Assembly: GCA_009699705.1 (NCBI GenBank)
Contig: WLNQ01000004.1
Location: 1 to 35,922 of the forward strand
DNA: 35,922 bases
Source of the DNA: Actinomycetota bacterium
GTDB lineage: Bacteria; Actinomycetota; Actinomycetes; S36-B12
Direction of reading: 5' to 3'
In this document: positions 1,358 to 33,634 of the stretch, one piece after another
Position numbering within the stretch: position 1 is the stretch's first letter
Layout: every line of letters starts with the position of its first letter
The notes under the pieces: model-generated
Told to the model about the DNA's origin: nothing
The model's database searches: none
Seen by the model: only the letters and a program-made list of their open reading frames with translations
Made by a program: the position numbers and the translations under genes

Positions 1358-2569
1358 ATGAAAATGTTGGATGGTATTCGAGTCTTGGATCTGACCATGT
1401 GGGCTTTTTGCCCCGCAGCTGGCGCAGTTCTCGCGGAGTGGGGTGCTGACGTCATCCACATTGAAAATCCCCGTAACCCCGATCCAATGCGACTTTTTGG
1501 CGGTGGCAATCTTGAAGAAAACGGAGCCCATTGGTTCTTCAAGCATTACAACCGAGGAAAGCGGGCGATCACTCTCGATCTTGCAACACCTGAAGGCAAA
1601 GATGCCCTCTACGCGCTTGTGAAAGAATCCGATGTCTTTCTCACGAGTTTCCTTCCCGCAACCAGACAAAAACTCGGGTTTGATGTTGATCAACTTCGCG
1701 CGATCAATCCAGACATTATTTACGCAAAGGGCACGGGCGGCGGACCGCTAGGTCCTGAAAACCAGCGTGGCGGTTATGACGGCGCAACCTGGTGGCACCG
1801 CGGGTCCCTGGCACAGTCAGTGATGAATGTGACCCAAACGCAGGTGCCATCGGGCATGGTTGGCCACGGTGACGGAATGTCGGGGCTGGTCCTGGCCGGT
1901 GGAATTTCAACGGCACTATTTCATCGTTTGAAAACTGGGGAAGCAACGGTCGTAGATTCATCATTGTTGGGAACAGCTGCCTGGTTCAATGCCTCAGCCA
2001 TTATTGGTGCAGTCGTTGACGGTCCCAATGCGCAAATGGGTAAATACATTCCCCGCGAAATGGGTCAGTGGTCAGGTGCGACGTATAAAACCCAAGATGG
2101 ACGTTTCATCGGGTTGCTCCATCTAGGTGATCACCAGCATGAGTTCGAAGATCTTTGCCGACACATGGGCAATGAAGGTCTCATTGCTGATCCTAGATTC
2201 GGCTCGCCTGCGGATCGAATGGCAAATTCAGGCGAACTCATGGCCATCATGGATGCCATTTTTGCTACGAAAACTTTCGCAGAGTGGAAGAGCATTTTGG
2301 TGACGAGTAAGGGCGTGTGGGCACCGATCCAATCGGTCGAAGAAATGCCCAATGATGTCCAGGTGCAAGCAAACCGAATGATTCGAACTGCGGAATACGG
2401 AGACAAATCTCAGCCGGTAGTGATGCCGCCAGTGATGTTCAATGAGGATGCCGGCCCATGCAATCGCGCACCAGATTTCAGCGAGCATACAAACGAAGTG
2501 CTGCGCGATATCGGCGGTTTCGACGACGCGAAGATCGCGGCTCTGAGATCAGCCGGGGTCATTGCTTAG
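1358..2569 (+). CDS. Family III CoA-transferase / alpha-methylacyl-CoA racemase family (CaiB/BaiF)
   Basis: N-terminal GIRVLDLTMWAFCPAAGAVLAEWGADVIHIENP, NRGKRAITLDL, and an Asp in GHGDGMSG at the expected catalytic position. Confidence 0.9.
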   Translation: MKMLDGIRVLDLTMWAFCPAAGAVLAEWGADVIHIENPRNPDPMRLFGGGNLEENGAHWFFKHYNRGKRAITLDLATPEGKDALYALVKESDVFLTSFLPATRQKLGFDVDQLRAINPDIIYAKGTGGGPLGPENQRGGYDGATWWHRGSLAQSVMNVTQTQVPSGMVGHGDGMSGLVLAGGISTALFHRLKTGEATVVDSSLLGTAAWFNASAIIGAVVDGPNAQMGKYIPREMGQWSGATYKTQDGRFIGLLHLGDHQHEFEDLCRHMGNEGLIADPRFGSPADRMANSGELMAIMDAIFATKTFAEWKSILVTSKGVWAPIQSVEEMPNDVQVQANRMIRTAEYGDKSQPVVMPPVMFNEDAGPCNRAPDFSEHTNEVLRDIGGFDDAKIAALRSAGVIA

Positions 2570-2577
2570 GAGATGAT

Positions 2578-3771
2578 GTGAATCAATTGGCAAGCGAGAA
2601 ACTGCTGACCCCGAAATTCTTAATATTGCTCACCGCAGCATTTGGAGTTTTTCTGGGCAATGGCATTGTCACGCCTGTATTGCCCGTCTTCGTTAAGGAT
2701 GGCTTGGGCGGAGGCGATGTTGCAGTCGGCATTGTTGTCGCGGTGCAAGCAATTTCAGCCATCGCCATTCGGCCTTGGATCACTCCAAAATTCAACACGT
2801 GGGGTGTCAAACCAATCCTGATTGGTGCGATTATTGCAGTGGCAATCTCATTGGGCTTTAGCGGAATTGTGCACAATGTCATTCAACTTATTCTTCTGAG
2901 ACTGTTATTAGGCGCAGGTATTGCAGTTCTGTTCATTGGGTCTCTCACTGCCGTCACGTCATGGGTTCCGGCGAATCGAGCGGGTGAATCGATCAGCTTG
3001 TTCTCGGTGGCGCCATATATCAGCATGGGTCTGGGGCCGTTAATCGGTCAGGCGATTTATCACGCGATGGGTTTTTCAGTTACTTTTGCGGTGGCCGGTG
3101 TTGTTGCAGCAGTTGGGGTCATAGCGATGCTCTTCCTCAAGGCCGAACCTTTGACAACTGCTGATCTCATGAACGAAGAGATTGCATCAAAACGGTTCTA
3201 TAAGGGTGCGGTCTGGCCCGGAGTGGTCATTGCGCTCGGCATTGTTGGGATGCTGTCATTTGGCGCCTTCATGCCGCTCTTCGCCCTTGAAATTCCTGGC
3301 CTGCAAATCCAAATCGCGTTCCTTATCCTTGCGGTAGTTGTTCTGTTGTTCCGCACAGTTGGCGGAAAGCTCCCAGACAGGATGGGGCCAAAGAAAACCA
3401 GCATCGTTGCAACTACGGCCTTGATCATCGGTATGGCTGGTGTTGCTACAACGCCATTCGCTTTGTGGGCGTACATTGCGATTGTTCCGTTCGCTATCGG
3501 TCAAGCCCTGCAGTACCCAGGCTTGCTGTCGTTGACCCTTGAAGGAATTTCGGAGAGGGATCGGCCAGTTGCAATTTCTACCTTCACGTTGTTCTTCGAT
3601 ATCTCCCAAGGCTTTGGCGGACTATTCGTTGGCATCGTTGCGGCGGTAGCCGGGTATCGAGCGGTATTTGGATCCGCTGCCTTGTGTGCCTTTATCGGTC
3701 TGATCATTATGTTGATGGTCGTCTTACCTAGGTATGAGGCTTCAAAACGTAACGCTGTTGCTCAACTTTAA
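2578..3771 (+). CDS. MFS transporter
   Basis: About 12 hydrophobic segments. Start moved from the ORF-track 2458 to GTG 2578, which has TAGGAG upstream and removes a long overlap with the CoA-transferase gene. Homologous to the next gene. Confidence 0.85.
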   Translation: MNQLASEKLLTPKFLILLTAAFGVFLGNGIVTPVLPVFVKDGLGGGDVAVGIVVAVQAISAIAIRPWITPKFNTWGVKPILIGAIIAVAISLGFSGIVHNVIQLILLRLLLGAGIAVLFIGSLTAVTSWVPANRAGESISLFSVAPYISMGLGPLIGQAIYHAMGFSVTFAVAGVVAAVGVIAMLFLKAEPLTTADLMNEEIASKRFYKGAVWPGVVIALGIVGMLSFGAFMPLFALEIPGLQIQIAFLILAVVVLLFRTVGGKLPDRMGPKKTSIVATTALIIGMAGVATTPFALWAYIAIVPFAIGQALQYPGLLSLTLEGISERDRPVAISTFTLFFDISQGFGGLFVGIVAAVAGYRAVFGSAALCAFIGLIIMLMVVLPRYEASKRNAVAQL

Positions 3772-3800: not shown

Positions 3801-5009
3801 TTGTCTGCACTTGGAAATGAAGATGTTTACTCGGAAAAATTAGTAACGCCCAAGTTCTTTCTGGTTCTTTTAGCAGCCTTTACTTTCTTCACTGGTGTCG
3901 GCATGACCCTGCCGATTCTGTCAATTTTTGTACATCGCGAACTAGGTGGAAGCGATGTTGAGATTGGCCTTGTCGTTGCCATCCAGGCGATTGCCGCAAT
4001 TGCGGTGCGTCCATTCATCACACCGCAGATCGCAAGATTCGGCGCGATCCCTGTCATCTTTATTGGTGCCACAATCGGAGCCATCGCTTTGGCGATGATT
4101 CCATTCTCACCAAACGTGATTATGCTGATTGTTTTGCGCCTAGCCCTAGGCGGAGCGCAAGCAATGATGATGGTCGCGATGCTGTCATCCGTGATGGCTT
4201 GGGTGAGCGAATGGCGACGGGCGGAGGCCGCCAGCGTATTTTCCGTAGCTCCATATATCGGCTTGGCCTTAGGGCCAGTGCTCGGTCAATTGATTTATAA
4301 TTCTGCTGGGTACCGCACAGCATTCCTCACTGCGGGTGTGATCGCTTTCGTCGGAGCGGTACCTGTGCTGGGCTTGCGCAAGTTCGATGTGAAAATTGAA
4401 ATTGATGCAGATGAGGATGGCGCGGGCCCGCCAGCAAGGTTCTACCTGCCCGCCTTACTTCCGGGTACCGTCCTTGCGCTCGGCATCGTCGGCATGGTGG
4501 GGATGCAAGCCTTTTTGCCTCTCTACGCACCGCAGCTGGGAACCAGTCAAGTGCAGTGGATGTTTTTCTTCTTTGCCGTGGTTGTGTTATCGGTTCGGCT
4601 CTTTGGACGCCGGATTCCTGACCGGGTAGGTCCGCGCAAAACCGGGATCTGGGCAACTTCGTTCATAATTTTGGGCTTAGTAGTGATGGCAGTGACGCCG
4701 AGTTGGCCCGGCATCTACCTAGCTATCCTTCCATTGGCTATTGGTATCGCCCTTCAATATCCCGGGCTGATGGCGCTGGTGCTCAGCGATGTGAGCGATC
4801 GTGTTCGCCCGTCCGCGATTTCCACTTTCACGATGTTCTTTGACATATCCCAGGGGTTAGGCGGCCTGGTTGTGGGCTTGGCCGCGGCCTTTGGGGGGTA
4901 CCGGGCAGTCTTTGGATTTGGCGCGGCTTGCTCGGCTGCCGGCTTGGTCGTTCTGGTTACCTTGGTACTTCCGAGATACACCAATAAGAGTGAGGGAGTT
5001 CTCAAATAA
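3801..5009 (+). CDS. MFS transporter, tandem paralogue of the preceding one
   Basis: Shares LxTPKFxLxLxAAF..VGIxVAxQAIxAIAxRPxITP and the FFDISQGxGGLxVGxxAAxxGYRAVFG block with 2578..3771; TTG start with GGAG upstream. Confidence 0.85.
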   Translation: MSALGNEDVYSEKLVTPKFFLVLLAAFTFFTGVGMTLPILSIFVHRELGGSDVEIGLVVAIQAIAAIAVRPFITPQIARFGAIPVIFIGATIGAIALAMIPFSPNVIMLIVLRLALGGAQAMMMVAMLSSVMAWVSEWRRAEAASVFSVAPYIGLALGPVLGQLIYNSAGYRTAFLTAGVIAFVGAVPVLGLRKFDVKIEIDADEDGAGPPARFYLPALLPGTVLALGIVGMVGMQAFLPLYAPQLGTSQVQWMFFFFAVVVLSVRLFGRRIPDRVGPRKTGIWATSFIILGLVVMAVTPSWPGIYLAILPLAIGIALQYPGLMALVLSDVSDRVRPSAISTFTMFFDISQGLGGLVVGLAAAFGGYRAVFGFGAACSAAGLVVLVTLVLPRYTNKSEGVLK

Positions 5010-5095
5010 CTCCTTCAGCAAAGCCAGGATAACTGCTATCGTAATGGTTTCCGTAGTATCGCAAATCCGACAACGATGACGTGACTGGAGAGGCA

Positions 5096-6091
5096 ATGGC
5101 AACTTCAACAGTGGGCATTGCCTTGGAGCGTGGAATCGACGACCCGCTCCCACAACTTTGGGATCTACGGCCACTTTCAGTTCGCCGCACCGTCACTATG
5201 AATGGCACGCCTGACCCGGATTGGGCCAGCGGTGTATTGCTGAGCGGCTCCGCTCGCGATGTCGCGGTGGATGGCCAGGGAAATATTGCATGGGAACATA
5301 CGGCTCAACTTTCAGCTCGAGCTGATGGTGCCGGATTTTTGTTAACGATCGATGTCAGTGACGATTCACATCGGCGCTCTCTTACTGAAGAACTGAAAGG
5401 ACGAAATATCGGCCCGGGGTTTCGTGGCCATATTTCAAAACTCCAAAATTCCTATGACCCGAACTCGCTCATTGGTTGCATGCTGGACGAACTTTCTGGG
5501 ATGCGTCACGTAGCGGGCTATGGTCGAATTGTTGCGGCTCCACCTCTGCCGGGATTTCTCGCAAATTCCCCACAGGTCGGTACGTGTGCTGGATGGCGTG
5601 CCGGTGGCGTTGCCGCGACCGCGCATGATCAGCACATTTTGGGTGTACTTCCACACGCACCAACGATTCACGAACTTGTCGAAGATGGTCCTGCCTGGCA
5701 TTACGAGGACGAAGTGCCATTTGGCACGATGCAACGACGACGCTTACTCGACATTTACCGCGGCGAAAACGCAAGTGTGAAAATCGAGATGTGGTTTCGT
5801 GACTCCTTGCACCGAGCGATAGCTGACGACGGAGCCCTGCACGAGTATGTGGTTACTGGAGAACTTGATGCCGCCGGAGTGCTGGTGAAAGCACATGCCA
5901 CACCCCGTACGCTTCCGATGGGTGATTGCCCCCTGGCAGCAGAGCACGTGACGCTGCTGCTTGGGAGAACACCGAACGAACTCGATGAAGGTGTTCGCCA
6001 GCACCTTCGAGGAGAGCTCGGCTGCACGCATCTCAATGATGCAATGAGATTTATTCGCTCCACCGACGTGATGCTTAACCAACTCAGTTGA
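5096..6091 (+). CDS. DUF2889-like protein of unknown function (paralogue A)
   Basis: LSVRRT N-terminal motif, TCAGW, HEY, GDCP and GCTHLNDAMR, shared with ORFs at 31568 and 32624. ATG 5096 preceded by GGAGAGG (ORF track starts at GTG 5081). Confidence 0.75.
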   Translation: MATSTVGIALERGIDDPLPQLWDLRPLSVRRTVTMNGTPDPDWASGVLLSGSARDVAVDGQGNIAWEHTAQLSARADGAGFLLTIDVSDDSHRRSLTEELKGRNIGPGFRGHISKLQNSYDPNSLIGCMLDELSGMRHVAGYGRIVAAPPLPGFLANSPQVGTCAGWRAGGVAATAHDQHILGVLPHAPTIHELVEDGPAWHYEDEVPFGTMQRRRLLDIYRGENASVKIEMWFRDSLHRAIADDGALHEYVVTGELDAAGVLVKAHATPRTLPMGDCPLAAEHVTLLLGRTPNELDEGVRQHLRGELGCTHLNDAMRFIRSTDVMLNQLS

Positions 6092-14514: not shown

Positions 14515-15174
14515 ATGACTAATTTGCAATCCGCAGCAACCGTTGTACTAGTGCGCGACTCCGATTCCGGTATCGAGTTATTACTGTTGAAGAGACCTCA
14601 GCAGGGTGCCTTTGCCAACGCTTGGGTTTTCCCAGGTGGGCGAGTGGAAGTCGAAGATGTGGTGAACGACGATGACGATGAAGTTGATGTCGCGCGTCGC
14701 ACAGCTTCGCGCGAAACGCTGGAAGAGACGGGGATGGTTGTCGATGCGGCTGATCTATCTCACTTCGCTGTCTGGCTACCACCTCCTCAAGCTCCAAAGC
14801 GTTTTCACACCTGGTTCTTCATTGGACAGGCACCCTTGGGTGCTGAAGTCCGACTACCCGACGGTGAACTTGTTGACCATATTTGGATCACGCCCGCGGA
14901 AGCAATTGCGCGCCATCAGCGGCAAGAAATCGATTTGATGCCTCCTACGTTTGTCTCAATCCAACAATTCGTAGCAGCGCGCAATCCCGCGGAGGCGCTA
15001 GCTATCGGAACCGTTGAAGTGACACCGCTGTACGAGAGTTTTGTGGTGCAGGTTGATGAACGGCCAACAATTGTCTGGACGGGCGACGCTGAACACCCGA
15101 CAACCGAAAACACCAACGGCCGGCACCGCCTTTCTATGGGGGACCGGCCGTGGGTGTTCGAGCGTTCTAGTTAA
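14515..15174 (+). CDS. NUDIX hydrolase (possibly acting on CoA/acyl-CoA)
   Basis: WVFPGGRVE then REtLEETGM Nudix residues separated by an acidic insertion; ATG 14515 or TTG 14509. Confidence 0.83.
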   Translation: MTNLQSAATVVLVRDSDSGIELLLLKRPQQGAFANAWVFPGGRVEVEDVVNDDDDEVDVARRTASRETLEETGMVVDAADLSHFAVWLPPPQAPKRFHTWFFIGQAPLGAEVRLPDGELVDHIWITPAEAIARHQRQEIDLMPPTFVSIQQFVAARNPAEALAIGTVEVTPLYESFVVQVDERPTIVWTGDAEHPTTENTNGRHRLSMGDRPWVFERSS

Positions 15175-16367
15175 AGACCGCTTTTTTCGAGAATGTGCAC
15201 GGTGCAAGAAGAGCCAAGCCCAATCACATGAGCCATGCCAGCCTTAGCACCCTGGATCTGACGTGGACCCGCTTCGCCACGAAGGTGCGTAGCAACTTCC
15301 CAGATATTGGCGATGCCGGTTGCCGCAATCGGGTGACCCTTTGACTGCAAGCCGCCTGAAACGTTAACTGGCATTCTGCCATCGCGCCAGGTTGCACCCG
15401 AGTTGAAGAAGTCAATAGCCCCGCCTGGCTCGCAAAGACCCAGGTTGTCGTAGTGCACTAATTCGGCTGCTGCAAAGCAGTCGTGCAGTTCGACGAGATC
15501 AAGATCATCGGGGCCGATTCCAGCTTGTTCGTAGGCTGCAACCGCGGCATTGCGAGTGACGGTGCTGACATCAGCGAATTCTTGGCTGGCTTCCGTCCAC
15601 GGATCAGATGCAAGGATTGAAGCACTGATCTTGACTGCTCGACGTTGCTGCTCAAGTGACAGTGTGCGCAACTTGGTTTCGCTCACGATTACAGATGCAG
15701 CTGCACCATCACAGTTCGCCGAACACATTGAGCGTGTGTGTGGGTAAGCAATCATTGGATCGTTCATGATCTGCTCAAGTGACATCTTGTTTTGGTAAGC
15801 AGCATTCGGATTCAGTGTTGAGTGCGAGTGGCTCTTCTCCGAGATTCGCGCAAAGAGTTCAAAGTCAGCCCGTGGGTCACTGTCGTTATAAGCCAACCCA
15901 ATTTGAGCAAATAGCCCTGCCATGCCACTTGTGCCGATGAAGCCATCAAGATTCTTGATTGCACCATTACGGCCGGTTGGCGTCCAAGTTTCTGGCCCAC
16001 TGCCAACTGAATTACCTGTAAGAAGGCCAGCACCATAAAGCTTTTCGACACCAACAGCGATACCCATGTCAGCTTCGCCAGCCTTGATGGCCATGATTAC
16101 TGCACGCATAGCCGTTGAGCCAGTGGCGCAAGCATTAGACACGTTGAAGGATGGAATACCTGTCTGGCCGATCTGCTTTTGTAGGCTTTGGCCGCTGGTT
16201 CCTCCGCGAAGGTTGCCGTAACCCATAACCTGCATGTCTTTCATAGTGACGCCGGCATCCTTGAGCGCAGCAAGAGCTGCTTCTGCTGCAAGGTCTAAGA
16301 CGTCTAGATCGGCACGCTTGCCGAAGGGAGTCATGTGAATTCCGAGAATCCAAACATTTTCGCTCAT
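15171..16367 (-). CDS. SCP-x-type thiolase retaining thiolase active-site residues
   Basis: VSNACATGSTAMRA, VELHDCFAAAELVHYDNLGLC, SKGHPIAATG, SSCTVHIL. Confidence 0.9.
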   Translation of the reverse strand: MSENVWILGIHMTPFGKRADLDVLDLAAEAALAALKDAGVTMKDMQVMGYGNLRGGTSGQSLQKQIGQTGIPSFNVSNACATGSTAMRAVIMAIKAGEADMGIAVGVEKLYGAGLLTGNSVGSGPETWTPTGRNGAIKNLDGFIGTSGMAGLFAQIGLAYNDSDPRADFELFARISEKSHSHSTLNPNAAYQNKMSLEQIMNDPMIAYPHTRSMCSANCDGAAASVIVSETKLRTLSLEQQRRAVKISASILASDPWTEASQEFADVSTVTRNAAVAAYEQAGIGPDDLDLVELHDCFAAAELVHYDNLGLCEPGGAIDFFNSGATWRDGRMPVNVSGGLQSKGHPIAATGIANIWEVATHLRGEAGPRQIQGAKAGMAHVIGLGSSCTVHILEKSGL

Positions 16368-16385: not shown

Positions 16386-16772
16386 CTAAACCGGCTCGAA
16401 GCCGAAACCGATGGCCTCGACGCCTTCAGCGTCTGTGCCAAGTGAGTAAGTTTTTAGTTGCACATGCATGCCACGGGTGATGATCTCTGGATCTGGGTCT
16501 ACCCCGATGATATTTCCGCCGACTGTCATACCGCCACAGTCGAGCACTGCTGCGCAGTAAGGCACGGGAACGCCCTTGGCATCGTGATGAACGATGGTGA
16601 AGGTCTTCAGCACCCCAGTGGTGGGAACTTCGAATTCTGCAAATGTGACGCCAAAACATTTCGGGCAGGCGTTATGACGCCCGAAGAACTTGGCCTTGCA
16701 CGCGGTGCATTCTTGAGCAACCAAATGTGGCTGCGGTTCAAGCACTAAGTAATTGACGATAGGAATCGACAA
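16386..16772 (-). CDS. Zn-ribbon/OB-fold protein (DUF35 family)
   Basis: CTACKAKFFGRHNACPKC (CxxC..CxxC), TTGVLKTFTIVHH; upstream partner of the 15171..16367 thiolase; TTG start with GGAG. Confidence 0.85.
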   Translation of the reverse strand: MSIPIVNYLVLEPQPHLVAQECTACKAKFFGRHNACPKCFGVTFAEFEVPTTGVLKTFTIVHHDAKGVPVPYCAAVLDCGGMTVGGNIIGVDPDPEIITRGMHVQLKTYSLGTDAEGVEAIGFGFEPV

Positions 16773-17925: not shown

Positions 17926-19203
17926 CTAAATGCCAAATCCCAATTCATTACTTCGACGTTCAAGTTTTCGCATAATCTTCGGCCGCAGCGCGAAGCTCAC
18001 GAGAATTGCCACGATGCAGCCATAGGCAATGACGACCCGCATGGAGGTCTGTTCGGCAATAAGCCCAGCGAGCAGCATGCCAAGGGGGACTGTTCCACCG
18101 AGCGCAGTCATCCACAGACCCATAAGATGCCCGCGACGCTCAAGAGACACATGGGTTTGGGCAGTTGCATTGAGTGAAACAATCACCATTTGGTAGGAAA
18201 TCCCGAGCAGAAAAATAATCGGGTAGGCGATCCTGGCCTCGTGAGCAAACACCAATACACCCAGCATGGAGATCACGCCGATCAAACCACATTGGATAAC
18301 GCGGAACTGGTCTCGCTTCACGAGAATGGTGCTGAGGGCGATGGCTCCAGTAACGGCACCGCCACCAAGACACGCGTAGAGCCAACCATAGCTCGGACTC
18401 TTAACATCGATCCCAAAATCTTGGCCAGCGATGGTAGGCAGTTGATAAAGGAAGGTCAAAGTAAGGAAGGCTAATGACAGCACACTGAGAATAATCCGCC
18501 GCACATAGGGATCCTGCTTCATCATCAGGATTCCCCCGCCTATCCCGGATTCGGCACCCGAAAGTTTCTTGCGCGGAGGAAAACGGATAAAGAAAACGGC
18601 AGACATAATGAAGGAGAAACTGGCCGCGTTAAGCAGCATCACACCAGAGGCCCCGATTATTGGGAAAAGGATTCCACCAATTGCTGGCCCGATAACCCGA
18701 GCCATGTTCATCTGCGTTGAGTTCAAGGAGACTGCAGCGCGAAGATTCTCTGGCCCAACAAGGCTTGGTACTGATGATCCCCAAGCAGGCCCGATCAGCG
18801 CGTTACCGATTCCCACGCCTAACACACACGCAAAGGCTGATGGGAAATGAAGTTCAGGGGCGCGTAAAACAAACGATAAGGCGATGACACATACAACCTG
18901 CCAGCTCTGCAGGATCAAAAGGTACTTGCGAACATCAAACTTATCGGTCATCCAACCGCCGACGATCGGCAAGAAAAGCATTGGTCCAAGTTGCGCGAAG
19001 GTAATGATACCAACATAAAGCGGCGATCCAGTTTGGCTAAAGATGTATGCGCCAAGAACGATGGTTTGCATCCAGGTGCCAATTTGCGACAGGAATGAAC
19101 CGATGAGCATGAAACGAAAAGCCCGCACCTTCAGAGCAGATCTGGCAGTACCAGTCTGTTCTGGGCGCGGGCTAGTCGAAGAAGCCACAGGGTGTGAACT
19201 CAA
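17926..19203 (-). CDS. MFS transporter (MFS_3/EntS-like)
   Basis: FRFMLIGSFLSQIGTWMQTIVLGAYIF and LPIVGGWMTDKFDVRKYLLILQ; multi-spanning. TTG start overlaps the upstream stop by 4 nt. Confidence 0.85.
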   Translation of the reverse strand: MSSHPVASSTSPRPEQTGTARSALKVRAFRFMLIGSFLSQIGTWMQTIVLGAYIFSQTGSPLYVGIITFAQLGPMLFLPIVGGWMTDKFDVRKYLLILQSWQVVCVIALSFVLRAPELHFPSAFACVLGVGIGNALIGPAWGSSVPSLVGPENLRAAVSLNSTQMNMARVIGPAIGGILFPIIGASGVMLLNAASFSFIMSAVFFIRFPPRKKLSGAESGIGGGILMMKQDPYVRRIILSVLSLAFLTLTFLYQLPTIAGQDFGIDVKSPSYGWLYACLGGGAVTGAIALSTILVKRDQFRVIQCGLIGVISMLGVLVFAHEARIAYPIIFLLGISYQMVIVSLNATAQTHVSLERRGHLMGLWMTALGGTVPLGMLLAGLIAEQTSMRVVIAYGCIVAILVSFALRPKIMRKLERRSNELGFGI

Positions 19204-21341
19204 CGAATCAAAGGATCTCTAGGCATTCCCAGGATTCGTTCTGCAATTACATTTCGACTGATTTCAGATGTTCCGCCGGCGATCGTTAAGGAGCGGTTGA
19301 ACACGTACTGGTAGGTGATTGGCCCGTTTTCTCCATCAACGCCACCGTCTCCAAGGAGCTTCATCGCGAGTTCAGTTGACGACTGAGCAAGTTCTGAAAC
19401 GAGAACTTTGGTGATGTTGCCTTCGGCACCTGGTCCGGAACCGATGACTGCGCGAGTTGCCGCGCGAAGGTTAAGCAAACGGATGACTTGTTCGTGCGCA
19501 ATCGTTTTTCCGACTTCACGGTCATGACCGATGTCTGTCTTCACGCCACCAGGAAGAAGTTCGATGAGATCGTAAGCATCGATGCCATTGCGAGATTGCC
19601 CGCCAATGGTTACGCGTTCGTTGCCAAGTGTTGCGCGGGCTACTGCCCATCCGTTGTTTATGTCGCCAACGACATCGGCATCGGGAACGAACACGGCATC
19701 GAAGAAGACTTCATTGAACATCGTGTCGCCGCTGTTTTCGCGAAGCGGACGAATAGTGACACCTGGAGCATCCATTTTGATCACCATCGCGGTGACACCC
19801 TTGTGCTTTGCGGCATCTGGATCTGTGCGCACAGTTGCCAATCCGAACTGGCAGTGTTGGGCGCCGGAGGTCCAGACCTTTTGGCCATCAACCTGCCAGC
19901 CGCCTTCAACTTTGATTGCCTTGGTCGAAACGGCTGCAGCATCTGAGCCTGCACCAGGCTCAGAGAACAGCTGGCACCATACGGTTTCGCCGAGCATTGC
20001 CGGACGAAGCCAACGTTGCACCTGCTCTTCAGTTGCCAACTGTGAAAGCGTTAAACCAACCCAGCCAGTGATACCAAGGTTTGGCACCTTGATATCCGTG
20101 AATTCTTCTTCGATCACAATCTGTTCGATTGCAGAAGCCTGACGGCCCCAAGGCTTGCCCCAGTGCGGAACCAAGTAGCCGGATTCAAAGAGCACCTGGC
20201 GACGGTCAGCTTCAGCTGCTGCGTGATAAGCAGCAACAGCTGCTTTGGCTTCAGCACGGAAACTCTCTGCTTCCTCGGGAAGATCAAATGCGTACACCCG
20301 TTGGTTGCCATTGGCGCTAAAGGCAGTGAGGTCAGCGGCTGCATCGTCAGAGTTTCCGAACAGCACAGCTAATGCTGCGGCGCGCTTGAAGTAAATATGC
20401 GCGTCGTGAACCCAAGTGAAGCCGATACCTCCATGAATCTGAATGTTCTTGCGAGCATTGAATTCGTAGGCAGGAAGTGACAACGCAGCGGCGGCAGCAG
20501 CAGCAATAGGGCCACGCTTTGGATCAAGACCTGTGCGGGCCGCGTCCCAAGCAAGTGCGGTAGCCATTTCGGTTTGAATCAACATGTTCGCGCAGTGATG
20601 CTTAATCGCTTGGAATGTTGAGATCGTGCGACCAAACTGTTCGCGGATCTTTGTGTATTCCGTTGCCATTTCAGAAGTGACTCGTGCGCCACCGGATGCT
20701 TCAGCGGAAGCCAGCACCCGCCCGATGCGGTGTGCGAGTTCGCCGCCGCCAACGATTACTTCAGCATCAACGTTTTTGAGTTCAACCTTTGCATTACGAC
20801 GGCTTGAGTCGATGGATGTATTCGCAGTGATGGTCACGCCGCTTGCGTTAGCTGCAACGATCACAAGATCATTGCCGACAACAAAGGCGAGGTGCGTTGC
20901 AAGTTCAGCCGAGGTCACTGCCTTTGCTGAGCCGCTGACCTTGCCGCCAGCGAGTACGAGATCTGAATGCAGTGCGAAACCTGCGACCGAAACTCCCTCT
21001 GCAAAGCTGGGAAGAAGTGATGTCTGCTGAGCGGCAGAGCCGGCAGCTGCAATCGTTGCAGAAGTGACCACCGTTGTGAGGAAAGCTCCTGGTGCGCAAA
21101 CCCGACCCAGTTCCTCGACCACGATGGCGAGTTCTTCAAGGCCGTAACCCTGACCGCCCACATTTTCAGGCAGGTGGAGGCCAAACATGCCGTTGTCTTT
21201 GAAGGCAGACCAATAGGCGGGTGTGACTTCCTTGTCAGCATCCAAAGTTGCGCGAGCCTGGGCTACGCCACCGTTGTCAGCAAGCAGTGAGCGTGCGACA
21301 TCAGCCAGCGAGCGGTGCTCTTCGGTAAGCGCGAGGGACAT
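19200..21341 (-). CDS. Fused two-domain acyl-CoA dehydrogenase (FadE34-like architecture)
   Basis: N-half: LPENVGGQGYGLEELAIVVEELG ... IQIHGGIGFTWVHDAHIYFKR. C-half: FSEPGAGSDAAAVSTKA ... VDGQKVWTSGAQH ... AGGTSEISRNVIAERILGMPRD. Start ATG 21341 with AAAGGAAG. Confidence 0.9.
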   Translation of the reverse strand: MSLALTEEHRSLADVARSLLADNGGVAQARATLDADKEVTPAYWSAFKDNGMFGLHLPENVGGQGYGLEELAIVVEELGRVCAPGAFLTTVVTSATIAAAGSAAQQTSLLPSFAEGVSVAGFALHSDLVLAGGKVSGSAKAVTSAELATHLAFVVGNDLVIVAANASGVTITANTSIDSSRRNAKVELKNVDAEVIVGGGELAHRIGRVLASAEASGGARVTSEMATEYTKIREQFGRTISTFQAIKHHCANMLIQTEMATALAWDAARTGLDPKRGPIAAAAAAALSLPAYEFNARKNIQIHGGIGFTWVHDAHIYFKRAAALAVLFGNSDDAAADLTAFSANGNQRVYAFDLPEEAESFRAEAKAAVAAYHAAAEADRRQVLFESGYLVPHWGKPWGRQASAIEQIVIEEEFTDIKVPNLGITGWVGLTLSQLATEEQVQRWLRPAMLGETVWCQLFSEPGAGSDAAAVSTKAIKVEGGWQVDGQKVWTSGAQHCQFGLATVRTDPDAAKHKGVTAMVIKMDAPGVTIRPLRENSGDTMFNEVFFDAVFVPDADVVGDINNGWAVARATLGNERVTIGGQSRNGIDAYDLIELLPGGVKTDIGHDREVGKTIAHEQVIRLLNLRAATRAVIGSGPGAEGNITKVLVSELAQSSTELAMKLLGDGGVDGENGPITYQYVFNRSLTIAGGTSEISRNVIAERILGMPRDPLIR

Positions 21342-21430
21342 GTTGCTTCCTTTCAAAGTTCAAAGATCAGGAGACTTCAAGAATATTAGCGGAATTGTAC
21401 AACTCTTTAGCCCAAATGACTCAGAAAAGT

Positions 21431-22928: not shown

Positions 22929-24071
22929 ATGCTCGAAAAGGACGTACAGATCATCAGTGTCGATGACCATGTCATCGAACATCCAAATGTTTGGCAAGAT
23001 CGCCTTCCAGCGAAGTTCAAAGAAGCAGGCCCGAACCTGGTTCGTGATGCCGTCAACGGTGACCACTGGGTCTTTGAAGGCGAAAAAGCAGGCAACTTCG
23101 CACTGAACGCAGTTGCTGGCCGAGCAAAAGAAGACATCGCAATGGACCCACGTTCATACGACGACATGCGCGATGGCTGCCATGACATCCATGAGCGCAT
23201 CAAGGACATGGACATCGAAGGTGTTCACGCACAATTGAACTTCCCAAACATGCCTGGGTTTGCAGGAACTACTTTGGCTATGGCCAAGGATAAGGAACTG
23301 GGACTTGCTTGCGTTCAGGCATACAACGACTGGATCCTTGACGAATGGTGCGCTCCGTACCCAGAGCGTCAGATTCCTTTGATGATCATGCCTTGGTGGG
23401 ATGTTGACCTGATGGTCAAGGAAATCCACCGCACGGCAGACAAGGGCGCGAAGAGCTTCACCTTCGTGGAACTTCCACACAAGTTGGGTCTGCCTTCTTG
23501 GCACACTGATCACTGGAACCCAATGTTGCAGGCTTCACAAGAGCGCGATATGCCAATCAGCATCCACTTTGGTTCCGGCGGAGCTCCTCTGGGTGTTTCT
23601 CAAGAAGGTATGTCGACGAACTTCACTATCGGGATTTCACTCTTTGCACTGAACTCAGCAATGGCCACTGCAGAACTGCTTTTGTCACCTGTATTCCACA
23701 ACTACCCAGGTGTGAAGTTCATCCTGAGTGAAGGTGGAATCGGCTGGGTTCCTTACATGCTCGAGCGCATCGACTACGTCTGGGATCGTCACCGTTGGTA
23801 CAACGACGTCAACCGCGAAGTAAAGCCTTCTTCATTGTGGAAGACCAACATGTACGCACCGTTCATTTACGACGATGCCGGTATCTTCTCCCGTCACCTC
23901 ATTGGTATCGAGAACATCATGTTTGAGTCTGATTACCCTCACTCAGACAGCAACTGGCCACACACCCGCAAGATGCTCGAAGAGTCCCTTGCCAATGTGC
24001 CAAATGATGAAGCTCGTTTGATCGCAGAAGGAAATGCTCGTCGCGTGTACAACTTCCCACGCGTCAGCTAA
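22929..24071 (+). CDS. Amidohydrolase-family (amidohydrolase 2 type) metal-dependent hydrolase
   Basis: ISVDDHVIEHPNVWQDRLP, ISIHFGSGG, FHNYPGVKFILSEGGIGWVPYMLERIDYVWDRHR, IMFESDYPHSDSNWP. Confidence 0.88.
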   Translation: MLEKDVQIISVDDHVIEHPNVWQDRLPAKFKEAGPNLVRDAVNGDHWVFEGEKAGNFALNAVAGRAKEDIAMDPRSYDDMRDGCHDIHERIKDMDIEGVHAQLNFPNMPGFAGTTLAMAKDKELGLACVQAYNDWILDEWCAPYPERQIPLMIMPWWDVDLMVKEIHRTADKGAKSFTFVELPHKLGLPSWHTDHWNPMLQASQERDMPISIHFGSGGAPLGVSQEGMSTNFTIGISLFALNSAMATAELLLSPVFHNYPGVKFILSEGGIGWVPYMLERIDYVWDRHRWYNDVNREVKPSSLWKTNMYAPFIYDDAGIFSRHLIGIENIMFESDYPHSDSNWPHTRKMLEESLANVPNDEARLIAEGNARRVYNFPRVS

Positions 24072-28986: not shown

Positions 28987-30138
28987 CTACTCAGCTGTAA
29001 GCAGCGCGCAGGCTGCGAAGCCGCCCACTGCGTTACTCACAACGCCAACTTCAGGCTTCTTTGGCAATGCGCGATCGCCGGCTGTGCCACGCAATTGTCG
29101 GGTTACTTCGATGAAGAAGTTCGCACCGTGACGTCGTCCCACGTTGCACGCTCCGCCATCAGTGTTGGTTGGAAGTGATCCAGTTGCGCTCGTGGCCCCT
29201 GAACGCACGAATGAGCCGCTCTCGCCTTCGCCACAGAAACCTAAGGCTTCTAGCCACTGCATTGCGATGAAACTGAAGCCGTCATACAACCCTGCGGTAT
29301 CAACGTCGCTTGGCTTGAGGTCAGTGCGTGACCACATCCGCTTTGAAGCCATCCAAGGTGAGGAGTGCGTCATGTCGCCGACGAGGCTGAAGTCAGCTTC
29401 CTTGGTTGTGCCGTTGGCCCAAGAGTCAAAGAACACTGGCTTTTGCTTCATGTCACGTGCACGTTCTTCGGTAGTGAAGATCAATGCGCTTGATGAGTCG
29501 ACTGGGTAATCGCAGTCGAATAAGTGCAGCGGCTTAGCGATGTAACGCGAGTTGAGGTAGTCGTCCATGGTGAGCTCTTCATGGAAGAAGGACTCAGTTG
29601 GATTAGCAACAGCGAACTTGCGTTGGGCGATTGCGAATGCACCAAAGTCTTCTTCGGTCGAGCCGTACATCGCCATGTGACGCTGCATATACAGACCCGC
29701 CCAATGGGAACCAGTGAATGATCCGTAAGGCATGCTGAATTGCTGGTTTCCTGGGATACCTTGATTGCCAGAAGGCCTGCCACCTCCGGCGGCACCGTCC
29801 TTGTGGACCGTGCGAAGGGTTAATACAGTTTCCGCCGACCCAGATGCGATTGCAGCAATCGCATGCATAGCTGCAACGCTATATGCAGCGCCATCAACGT
29901 TGCCTGAGTAGAAGGCAAGGTCTGGGATACCGAGCATTGCTGCAGTGTGGGTAGATGAAACGAATTGGTGGGGGAAGCTGTGGACAACCACACCATCGAT
30001 GTCTGTCGGCTTGATGCCTGCATCGTCCATAGCCGCGACGCTGGATTGTGCTGTCAACTTGTCGAGGGTGTATCCGGTGCCGCGGCTTACGTCTGAATAG
30101 CCGACACCAACGATTGCTACACGATTCTTTTTAGCCAT
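28987..30138 (-). CDS. Thiolase-like lipid-transfer protein (Ltp2-like; candidate aldolase)
   Basis: AAMDDAGIKPTDIDGVVVHSFPHQF, TAGLYDGFSFIAMQWLEALGFCGEGESGSFV, NTDGGACNVGRRHGAN. Confidence 0.88.
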   Translation of the reverse strand: MAKKNRVAIVGVGYSDVSRGTGYTLDKLTAQSSVAAMDDAGIKPTDIDGVVVHSFPHQFVSSTHTAAMLGIPDLAFYSGNVDGAAYSVAAMHAIAAIASGSAETVLTLRTVHKDGAAGGGRPSGNQGIPGNQQFSMPYGSFTGSHWAGLYMQRHMAMYGSTEEDFGAFAIAQRKFAVANPTESFFHEELTMDDYLNSRYIAKPLHLFDCDYPVDSSSALIFTTEERARDMKQKPVFFDSWANGTTKEADFSLVGDMTHSSPWMASKRMWSRTDLKPSDVDTAGLYDGFSFIAMQWLEALGFCGEGESGSFVRSGATSATGSLPTNTDGGACNVGRRHGANFFIEVTRQLRGTAGDRALPKKPEVGVVSNAVGGFAACALLTAE

Positions 30139-30168: not shown

Positions 30169-30591
30169 TTACTGGGCTGCTGGATGGAAGACGGGAAGCA
30201 TGAAGCCTTCGCCGAGCGGCTGGAAAGTTACTTCGACACGATCTCCAACTTTCACGTCATCTGGATTCACATTGACGATATTGGTGATCATTTTTAGACC
30301 GGGCTGATCATCAAGCTCAACTACGGCCAGCACGAAAGGAAGTTTGTCCTCAAACCAAGGATGGAAGGCTTGAGTCGGAATGCAGAACGTGTAGACGGTT
30401 CCTTTCCCTGACACGGGGGCTGATCCGAGGTCGAAACTTAGGCATGCGGAGCAAATTGGCTCAGGTGCATGCTGGAAGTGCCCACATGAATTGCAATGTT
30501 GAATAACTAGTTGGCCTTTGCTAGCGCCTTCCCAAAAAGGAGCGGTGAGCTCATTGGGTAGCGGTAGCGGTGGTGAAACCTCTGTTGTCAT
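30169..30591 (-). CDS. Zn-ribbon/OB-fold protein (DUF35 family)
   Basis: HCNSCGHFQHAPEPICSACLS, SGKGTVYTFCIPTQAFHPWF. Start moved to ATG 30591 with AAGGAGAGG (ORF track starts inside the SDR gene). Confidence 0.87.
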   Translation of the reverse strand: MTTEVSPPLPLPNELTAPFWEGASKGQLVIQHCNSCGHFQHAPEPICSACLSFDLGSAPVSGKGTVYTFCIPTQAFHPWFEDKLPFVLAVVELDDQPGLKMITNIVNVNPDDVKVGDRVEVTFQPLGEGFMLPVFHPAAQ

Positions 30592-30605
30592 TGTTCGTCC
30601 TCTCC

Positions 30606-31412
30606 TTATTCGCTGTCTTCTGGCCAAAGCACATCGTCGGTAAGTCCCCCGAGTCCGCGCGGGCCACCGTCGATTGAAAGTGTTTGTCCGCTGATCCAAC
30701 TGCTCATGTCGCTTACGAAGAACAATGCGCCGTTGGCAATATCAATGGGCCAACCCACCCGACGAAGCGGTACTTCCGCCCCCATGCTGTCGGCGTCCAT
30801 GCCGAAACGCTCCCATGATCGAAGTGCACCTTCTGAGGCAACTCCACCAACTGCAATGGCATTGGCTCGGATACCTTTGGGTCCCCACTCGGCTGCGATC
30901 ACTCGCGTGAACATCTGCAAGCCAGCTTTACCTGCTGAATATGCTGCTCCGCCTTTGACTCCTGAAACACCTGCAGCTGAAGACATCGACACGATCGAGG
31001 CGTGTTCAGATTTAAGGAGGTGCGGGAGAGCAGCGTGAGAACACAAGTAAGCAGAAGTGAGGTTGAGTTCAATTGAATTACGGAATCGCTCAGGCGAAGT
31101 GTCTTTGGTCGGGAACATGTACGCGCCACCGGCGTTGTTGATCAGGATGTCAATTTTGCCAAACTCGCTTACGGTGGTGTCTATCAGGTGTTGGACTTGG
31201 TCATCTTCGCGAACGTCGGTTTGCACAGCGAGGGCACGATGACCTGACTTAGCGATAATTTCTTCGGCAGTTGTTTGCAGGCGTTCGAGTTTTCTACCAG
31301 CGATCACGACATCGGCTCCGTGTTCGGCGAACAGCCGAGCAGTTGTCGCACCGATGCCGGTACCGCCACCAGTAATGATTGCTACGCGACCCGTTAAGTC
31401 CATCATGTCCAT
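30606..31412 (-). CDS. Short-chain dehydrogenase/reductase
   Basis: GRVAIITGGGTGIGATTARLFAEHGADVVIAGR, INNAGGAYMFP, YSAGKAGLQMFTR, WISGQTLSIDGGPRGLGG. Confidence 0.92.
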   Translation of the reverse strand: MDMMDLTGRVAIITGGGTGIGATTARLFAEHGADVVIAGRKLERLQTTAEEIIAKSGHRALAVQTDVREDDQVQHLIDTTVSEFGKIDILINNAGGAYMFPTKDTSPERFRNSIELNLTSAYLCSHAALPHLLKSEHASIVSMSSAAGVSGVKGGAAYSAGKAGLQMFTRVIAAEWGPKGIRANAIAVGGVASEGALRSWERFGMDADSMGAEVPLRRVGWPIDIANGALFFVSDMSSWISGQTLSIDGGPRGLGGLTDDVLWPEDSE

Positions 31413-31567: not shown

Positions 31568-32572
31568 TTGCCATACGAACTTCCCGTTGTGGGTCGCGCT
31601 ATCACGAATGGCGTTAGCGGCCCTAGCGACCCAAGCCCGGAACGCAAGCCCCATTCAATTCGGCGCACATCGTCCTTGGATTTGGATTATCCGAATGGTT
31701 TGGAAGGTAGTCGAAGAGTGCGAGCCAGGGCTCGCGACCTCATAACCTTTGACGGTGGGACGAAAGTCTTGGCGGACGATGTGCTCGTGGTTTCTGTTGC
31801 GATCGATAGGTCGTATGAATCCATTTTCAGTTTTCCAGATCGACCATCCTTGCAAGAAATGGTTGGCCCGCGGGGAACGAAGAATTCCAGACGCGCGATG
31901 AGCGCACTCGTGCCAGAGGAACGCGAAGCTGGAAGTCCGCTTTACCTGTTGCTGGATGATCTTCCAGCGATTTCATTGGTGGCCGGACACATCCCAGTTG
32001 AATGGGTACCTCCACAAGAGCGCACCTCGCAACTCAAGGGAGACTATCGAGCCCCGGTTGGCGTCTGCGCTGGATTCCAGGAAGGCTCAAATGCGATCGG
32101 GCCTGATGGGAAGAACCTTTTCGTCCATCAAGTGCAATCGATTGGGTTGCTCACGCGCACAGATGATCCGGCGGCCTGGCATAAACTCCAAGATGAAGTG
32201 GACGCGCCCTCAATGCGAAGGGTTCGGCGCATCGATGTGTGGGTCGATGATGTCATTCATGTCGATGCATTCTTCCAAGATAGCTGCACCACACCGCATC
32301 ACGGACGGATCGCTGTACACGAGTATTGCCTCACAGCGAGGGCGGATTTGCAGACTGGGGTCTTGCTTTCAGTTGTTGCTGATCCACGAGTGTTGCCCTT
32401 TGATGCCTGCCCTTCGGCTGTCGGCAATATCGATCGAATGATTGGTATACCGCTGGTCGAGTTTCGTGAAGCGGTGCTCGACCAGTTGCCTGGAACCCTT
32501 GGGTGCACTCACTTAAATGATGCGCTTCGTGCTCTCGCCGAAGTGCCCACGATGGTGGGATCGATTCAGTAG
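31568..32572 (+). CDS. DUF2889-like protein of unknown function (paralogue B)
   Basis: SIRRTSSLD, GSPLYLLLDDLPAISLVAGH, VCAGFQEG, RRIDVWVDDVIHVDAFFQDS, HEY, ACP, GCTHLNDALRALAEV; TTG start. Confidence 0.77.
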   Translation: MPYELPVVGRAITNGVSGPSDPSPERKPHSIRRTSSLDLDYPNGLEGSRRVRARARDLITFDGGTKVLADDVLVVSVAIDRSYESIFSFPDRPSLQEMVGPRGTKNSRRAMSALVPEEREAGSPLYLLLDDLPAISLVAGHIPVEWVPPQERTSQLKGDYRAPVGVCAGFQEGSNAIGPDGKNLFVHQVQSIGLLTRTDDPAAWHKLQDEVDAPSMRRVRRIDVWVDDVIHVDAFFQDSCTTPHHGRIAVHEYCLTARADLQTGVLLSVVADPRVLPFDACPSAVGNIDRMIGIPLVEFREAVLDQLPGTLGCTHLNDALRALAEVPTMVGSIQ

Positions 32573-32623
32573 GCTGCAGTTCTGAGCTGGTACTCGATGA
32601 GACCGGACGACGAAAGGTGTGGG

Positions 32624-33634
32624 ATGGCTGTCGATGTACCCGCTGGGATTCAACCCATTGGTCCCTCAATTCCATCTCCGCAGCGTCGACTTGGGTCAGT
32701 TCGTCGTACATCAACAATTGATGCCATCTGGGAGGGAGACTCCCGAGATGCGCCGATGCAGATATTTGGACGAAGTCGGGATCTTTTCACGCCAGCTGAT
32801 GGGTCATCCCCGGAAGTTTTGCAGGAAGCAGCACTCAATGGAGTTGTCGGTACTGATCGCGTTGTAACTGAGATTTCTTCGCGACCGGAGCTTGAAAATC
32901 TTGAGATTTTAATTGGCCTCAAAGGGGGCTTACGCAGCACAATTGTGGAGACGTTTCCTGATCAAGTGGAGGCAGGCACTCCTCTTTACCTCTTATTAGA
33001 TGACATTTCTGGCGCGACTTTGGTTTCAGGATTCGCTTTCACCCACTGGACCCCACCCGGTGCCAAGTCACTTGTGCAAGAAACGAGTCCAGATCTAAAG
33101 GCAAGGAAATTGAAAATGCTCAATATCTGCGCTGGCTTCCAAGAAGGCGCAAGCGCACTTGGCATTGATGGCCCGGCTGCAGTACACGCGATACAGCCCG
33201 TGGAGAATCTTTCAATTGCAAGTGATCCGGATGCTTGGCATGAGTTGCAAGATCCTGCTGGGATCTCAGCACGACGGTCGCGGCGAATGGATGTTTGGCG
33301 AGAAGGCGATGAATACGTCATTGACGCTTTCTTCCAGGATGCTGGTACCTCGCCGTCTGGCCAACGCATTGCAGTTCACGAGTACACCTTGGCTGCGCGA
33401 GTTAATACAAGCACCGGACTGGTGACCGCGATAAAGGCGATTCCGCAGGTATTGCCGTTTAACGAATGTCCGATGGCCATCATTGCTGTTGAGCGGCTTG
33501 TCGGGCAACCAATACGCGAATTCAGATCACTGGTAAATGAGTTACTGCCCGGTATCGACGGATGCACTCATATGAATGACACGCTTCGCGCGCTTGCTGA
33601 AGTTCCGATACTGGTGAGTCATATACCAGCTTGA
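32624..33634 (+). CDS. DUF2889-like protein of unknown function (paralogue C)
   Basis: SVRRTSTID, GTPLYLLLDDISGATLVSGF, ICAGFQEG, RRMDVWREGDEYVIDAFFQDA, HEY, ECP, GCTHMNDTLRALAEV. ATG 32624 after GAAAGG; alternative ATG 32597. Confidence 0.77.
   Translation: MAVDVPAGIQPIGPSIPSPQRRLGSVRRTSTIDAIWEGDSRDAPMQIFGRSRDLFTPADGSSPEVLQEAALNGVVGTDRVVTEISSRPELENLEILIGLKGGLRSTIVETFPDQVEAGTPLYLLLDDISGATLVSGFAFTHWTPPGAKSLVQETSPDLKARKLKMLNICAGFQEGASALGIDGPAAVHAIQPVENLSIASDPDAWHELQDPAGISARRSRRMDVWREGDEYVIDAFFQDAGTSPSGQRIAVHEYTLAARVNTSTGLVTAIKAIPQVLPFNECPMAIIAVERLVGQPIREFRSLVNELLPGIDGCTHMNDTLRALAEVPILVSHIPA

Follow-up and report, generated by a model that had tools for sequence, protein, structure and literature searches.

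A two-unit form of DUF2889 that recurs among acyl-CoA genes and is tandemly paired in one actinobacterial genus

In the open-licence full-text literature DUF2889 is mentioned only in passing, in 2 of 5.39 million texts, and is given no function. The core genes listed for the Burkholderia cepacia complex include a DUF2889 gene (PMC7253759), and in a survey of DUF families from 2015 DUF2889 is placed in a SCOP superfamily. Estrogen (aed/edc) clusters were considered because of the Streptomyces and Rhodococcus DK180 neighborhoods; the passages covered, from a review and from the Novosphingobium tardaugens edc paper, mention no DUF2889 gene. Resin-acid dit clusters, suggested by Pseudomonas and Caballeronia loci, were also considered and set aside, as no link to DUF2889 was found. 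Proteins of the family fall into two size classes, a short form of about 170-230 aa that consists of one unit and a long form of about 340 aa. The subject of this work is a pair of adjacent long-form genes, A and B, in a 35,922-nucleotide stretch of actinobacterial DNA, which we call the window (Table 1).

A and B are new members of DUF2889, a family already known by name only. The Pfam profile PF11136 scored 76.1 bits against A (E 3.6e-21, residues 216-326) and 84.2 bits against B (E 1.1e-23, residues 226-337), far above the curated cut-off of 25 bits, and the conserved R..D..H..C..GC(T/S)H of the family was found in the long-form and short-form alignments. The name DUF2889, which an earlier sequence-only reading of the window had proposed, is therefore right. 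The Pfam match in both proteins is confined to the C-terminal ~110 residues. NCBIfam gave no match, nor did a sequence search of solved structures.

The homology of A and B is clear, with 44% identity, and the motifs listed in the sequence-only reading are present in both proteins: S(I/V)RRTS, G(S/T)PLYLLLDD, CAGFQEG, RIAVHEY and CP, together with RR(I/M)DVW...DAFFQD and GCTH(L/M)ND(A/T)LRALAEVP. Upstream of the TTG of gene A at 31568 lies TAAGGATGAG. Gene B as listed is nine residues longer than its homologues in congeners, which begin MAVDVP; given this start and a GAAAGG upstream, translation probably begins at the ATG at 32624 (336 aa). The source genome (1.83 Mb, 86% complete) holds five DUF2889 genes, three of them within the window, and the third of these had been overlooked previously. 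It has a probable start at 5096, behind GGAGAGG, and we place it in a separate subfamily because of its branch of 2.3 changes per column in the maximum-likelihood tree. A, B and this third gene all retain 22/22 key residues, and the A and B copies both still look active.

Table 1. Positions in the window of the DUF2889 genes, the parts of B discussed in the text and the divergent neighbors of A
Feature	Position	Strand	Remarks
Gene A, long-form DUF2889 protein	31568..32572	+	ORF, 334 aa, TTG start
Gene B, long-form DUF2889 protein	32597..33634	+	ORF, 345 aa as listed
N-half of B, degenerate DUF2889 unit without the His/Cys set	32696..33028	+	Residues ~34-144; predicted order bbbb-aaa (b, strand; a, helix)
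C-half of B, DUF2889 unit	33266..33631	+	Residues 224-345; PF11136 match
Cys178 codon of B (GICAGF)	33128..33130	+	82/82 conserved; aligned to the short-form Cys tail
Third DUF2889 gene, distant subfamily	5081..6091	+	PF11136 E 3.5e-20, 73 bits (genome search)
SDR, divergent neighbor of A	30606..31412	-	PF13561 E 6.3e-59
DUF35 / OB_ChsH2_C protein, adjoins SDR	30169..30699	-	PF01796 match 30220-30417
Ltp-type thiolase-like protein	28987..30138	-	PF22691 match 29014-29394

Profile alignments and the predicted structure together show the long form to be an internal duplication, a head-to-tail fusion of two DUF2889 units. With hhalign, the C-half aligned to the N-half with P 2.9e-5, and the N-half aligned to the short forms with P 7.1e-7 (probability 92%) and to the combined domain profile with P 2.4e-8 (probability 95%). 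The AlphaFold2 model of B (pLDDT 92.9, pTM 0.91) shows four strands followed by three main helices in either half, the order of the elements being the same in both, and the C-half modelled alone reached a pLDDT of 91.8. The two halves differ in their residues. The C-half of B holds D248, H261-E262-Y263, C291 and C323-T324-H325; in the N-half the counterpart of C291 is a gap, the position of H261 has no His and is mostly A, D or G, and GTPL stands where the C-half has GCTH. As the N-half lacks the His, the first Cys and the C-x-H, the residue set is complete only once in a long form, whereas two short forms together would have it twice. A conserved Cys tail (CHAW and variants) closes the short form; in the long form it reappears after the N-half as GIC178xGF and is absent after the C-half. 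Neither the fused two-unit reading nor the split in genomic context between long and short forms, described below, was found in the open-licence literature searched.

Conservation within the long form is extensive. R36, R37, T38, R61, D62, R113, D135, C178, D210, H215, R227, R229, D248, H261, E262, Y263 and C291 are invariant in 82/82 rows of the long-form alignment, as is the C-terminal block C323, T324, H325, N327, D328 and R331, although the invariance of this block is partly built in by the scan pattern CTH[LM]NDxLR, outside which the remaining invariant residues lay. The H, C and C-x-H are retained as well in the short forms that the Pfam profile detected. The conserved Cys, His and Asp residues to which the sequence-only reading drew attention thus proved invariant in long forms, with the H, C and C-x-H common to short forms, and their conservation fits an enzyme or a metal site, short of proving either.

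DUF2889 was found in 9/9 genomes of the window's genus, in 0/26 genomes from other genera of the same family and, as a short form, in one of 24 genomes from other families of the order. It was present in 42/298 genomes of a phylum sample and in 26/299 genomes (9%) of a Pseudomonadota sample, single-copy in most of the latter. The Pseudomonadota short forms (L259-L283) are single-copy, have a CHAW-like C-terminal Cys tail and share no common neighborhood. When 85,462 species genomes were scanned with a long-form profile, 424 encoded relatives were confirmed, the best 79 loci of which belong mostly to Actinomycetota and sphingomonads, the rest coming from some Burkholderiaceae, Pseudomonas, Haliea, Myxococcota and Acidobacteriota. 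Caballeronia sordidicola has a second, shortened DUF2889 copy (locus L125, 11723-12202) that is without the GCTH end and looks like a decayed gene.

The tandem arrangement is not a general feature of DUF2889, occurring only in the window's genus among the loci examined. There the A-B pair is retained in congeners, flanked by divergent SDR-DUF35-Ltp genes and, on the other side, by a metallophosphoesterase gene. In the maximum-likelihood tree the A clade is sister to the B clade, the latter including a further paralogue type, and both are confined to this genus, and the pair appears to be the product of a duplication within this actinobacterial lineage. The same genus averages 6.4 DUF35 genes per genome (range 3-12) versus 0.6 in sister genera (range 0-3 in the rest of the family); the gain of DUF2889 and the expansion of DUF35 are one event in one genus and not independent evidence. 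Ltp-like thiolase genes are, like DUF35, strongly expanded in this genus relative to sister genera, and the DUF35/Ltp-like expansion points to a lineage specialised in side-chain or ring catabolism.

Eight acyl-CoA families were scored (crotonase, ligase, ACAD, Ltp-like thiolase, DUF35, CaiB, acetyltransferase and TesB) at 77 long-form loci, all outside the window's genus, and at 20 arbitrary control stretches from six DUF2889-carrying genomes. At least two of the eight families were present at 49/77 long-form loci (64%) versus 3/20 controls (15%; Fisher p 1.1e-4), with the caveat that absolute rates are tilted towards long-form loci, as the neighbor profiles were built from families recurring around long forms, identified by Pfam, and so derive from those same loci. 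DUF35 was found near 22, Ltp-like thiolase near 31 and Amidohydro_2 near 33 of the 77 long forms, and each was found in 0/20 controls. Loci inside one taxonomic group are not independent, and the signal held in each of three groups taken on its own: the counts with at least two families were 20/28 in Actinomycetota, 22/38 in sphingomonads and 7/11 in non-sphingomonad Proteobacteria plus Acidobacteria. About a third of long-form loci were without two or more of the tested families. Short forms do not share this setting: at least two families occurred at one of 14 actinobacterial and three of 18 proteobacterial short-form loci (4/32), and their neighborhoods were mixed, with no shared theme. The sequence-only reading had suggested a role for DUF2889 in CoA-thioester metabolism and had looked to a recurrent association with acyl-CoA genes. 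Such an association does exist across phyla for the long form, which supports the suggestion in part; it does not extend to DUF2889 as a whole family, which, given the neighborhoods of the short form, is no acyl-CoA marker.

Genes clustered with long forms in unrelated bacteria encode acyl-CoA ligases, ACADs, crotonases, thiolases, Ltp/DUF35 pairs, CaiB transferases and Amidohydro_2 enzymes. On an annotated Streptomyces plasmid (NBC_00564) the order is ALDH-DUF2889-ACAD with 10-bp gaps, and on an annotated plasmid of Sphingomonas paeninsulae it is ACAD-ACAD-DUF2889-SDR with overlapping genes; similar DUF2889 sites lie on annotated plasmids of Rhodococcus, Sphingobium and Mycobacterium branderi. 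As the neighboring families vary, they do not single out one missing step. Within the window, the third DUF2889 gene is the first of an operon, DUF2889-ACAD-ACAD-thiolase-ligase-DUF35-Ltp-SDR, whose order is retained in congeners, and its last 4 nt overlap the ACAD gene that begins at 6088. Two adjoining MFS-like transporter frames (2458-3771 and 3801-5009, + strand) lie between a CaiB gene and this operon. Elsewhere in the window there are an Amidohydro_2 gene (22929-24071, +), a further DUF35 domain (16452-16631, -) in a 133-aa frame adjoining a thiolase-like gene (15171-16367), and a gene for a 718-aa protein (19200-21356, -) whose single chain carries, according to Pfam, the acyl-CoA dehydrogenase C-terminal domain twice; this protein is apparently two fused ACADs, resembling the paired ACADs of steroid degradation.

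We tentatively favor, as the best joint explanation of these data, a long form that is a fused two-unit thiol or metal enzyme of CoA-linked breakdown, combined with duplication of A and B within the lineage; taken as a whole, this account falls just short of being probable. Our reasoning with regard to the long form is that its relatives in very different bacteria recur among genes for the breakdown of CoA-linked ring or fatty compounds, and it is therefore probably an enzyme of such breakdown. Neither structure nor sequence comparison gave a relative whose function is known, and the word enzyme is therefore drawn here from residue conservation. The model would have: (i) one thiol or metal site, the metal most likely being zinc, built from H261, C291, C323 and H325; (ii) an N-half that closes this putative site via C178 and H215; (iii) invariant Arg residues that may hold an anionic, probably CoA-linked, substrate; and (iv) as substrate, an intermediate, either linked to CoA or carboxylated, from the degradation of bulky alicyclic or aromatic compounds. 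Candidate reactions include hydrolysis, decarboxylation and isomerisation, and the Amidohydro_2, Ltp/DUF35 and P450 neighbors would be fitting company for a hydrolase or lyase of a ring intermediate activated with CoA. A bolder proposal, possible but somewhat doubtful, is that the long form is an undescribed enzyme class with an unsolved fold, made from two fused copies of an ancestral subunit of which one active site was retained. In actinobacteria and sphingomonads it would carry out an unassigned CoA-linked step on polycyclic or alicyclic compounds that resemble steroids, terpenoids or alkylaromatics.

The same neighborhood counts (49/77 loci) would also be expected if the long form were a non-catalytic partner of acyl-CoA enzymes, one that binds or channels a hydrophobic acyl-CoA intermediate or that, as a subunit, stabilizes an ACAD or Ltp complex as DUF35 does for Ltp. 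Direct same-strand adjacency to an ACAD at 11/77 loci and to an SDR at 19/77 is in keeping with such a partner, and a ligand could be enclosed by the two four-stranded sheets and their helices. Foldseek comparison of the whole-chain B model with the PDB and viral models gave no match at E <= 0.001, with TM mostly <0.2, and its weak matches, none significant, were to barrels and tubular lipid-binding proteins. We nevertheless consider a non-catalytic partner rather unlikely, as invariant free Cys, His and Arg residues exceed the usual need of a binding scaffold and as the adjoining partners change between loci, so that no single partner enzyme is implied. It is less likely still that DUF2889 has a general cell role unrelated to CoA and that long forms are simply carried along in catabolic islands. 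Short forms do occur without acyl-CoA neighbors, most of the sampled Pseudomonadota genomes that carry them (9% of the sample) have one copy and the Burkholderia cepacia complex counts a DUF2889 gene in its core set; however, the enrichment for acyl-CoA genes is confined to long forms, extends across phyla and comes with operon-like spacing, and within the window's family DUF2889 is found only in the DUF35-expanded genus.

The least likely of the readings that we weighed, and a quite improbable one, is that the DUF2889 unit is a metal or sulphur carrier of the IscU/SufU type, with H261, C291 and C323 in the roles of IscU Asp39, Cys63 and Cys106. The predicted order of strands followed by three helices is IscU-like, as is the modelled placement of a Cys where the first and the last helix of the unit begin, and in an hhalign comparison with 59 NifU_N proteins H261, C291 and the next helix fell onto the ligand loop and helix of IscU, with a score that topped 134/134 decoys. 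The margin over those decoys was narrow, though, at a probability of 4-8% (P 0.004-0.011); PF01592 (NifU_N) did not match A or B up to E 10, and the Cys/Asp loop and His-Cys order of IscU itself are missing from DUF2889. SufU came at rank 50 in a Foldseek search with the C-half (E 0.30, TM 0.25). Furthermore, 30/30 relatives already have their own NifU_N gene, and the common neighbors of DUF2889 are not iron-sulphur enzymes. Kinship with IscU/SufU is retained as a lead and not as homology.

If an enzyme of CoA-linked breakdown is the correct reading, a DUF-only protein of hundreds of actinobacterial and sphingomonad genomes would gain a testable catabolic role, in the removal of hydrocarbons, steroids and other persistent ring compounds. 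Its fused architecture provides an internal control, with the residue set in one half and lost from the other, and tests of single residues should therefore be easy to read. The split in context between long and short forms warns against assuming one function for all DUF2889 proteins.

Of described folds, the NTF2-like / SnoaL fold (limonene epoxide hydrolase, beta subunits of ring-hydroxylating dioxygenases) gave the best Foldseek matches to the C-half, through an antiparallel sheet over 64-72 aligned residues. This assignment was rejected, with a TM of 0.33 (>0.5 being needed) and an E of 0.028 for the best-ranked match and with no match to the PDB at E <= 0.001; unlike in NTF2-like proteins, the helices of DUF2889 come after the sheet, and there are no catalytic residues in common. 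Related proteins include the DUF2889 short form of Pseudomonadota and Actinomycetota. It is matched over its whole length by the C-half of the long form and has the R, D, H, C and C-T-H positions in common with it, but is without the acyl-CoA cluster setting. Other close relatives are the long-form proteins of Rhodococcus, Streptomyces, Mycobacterium and sphingomonads, of which WP_081559199.1 and WP_332880709.1 are examples. These are 32-46% identical to B and have the same length, the same residues and the same kind of neighborhood as A and B, and differ in occurring as single or scattered copies where the window's genus has a tandem pair.
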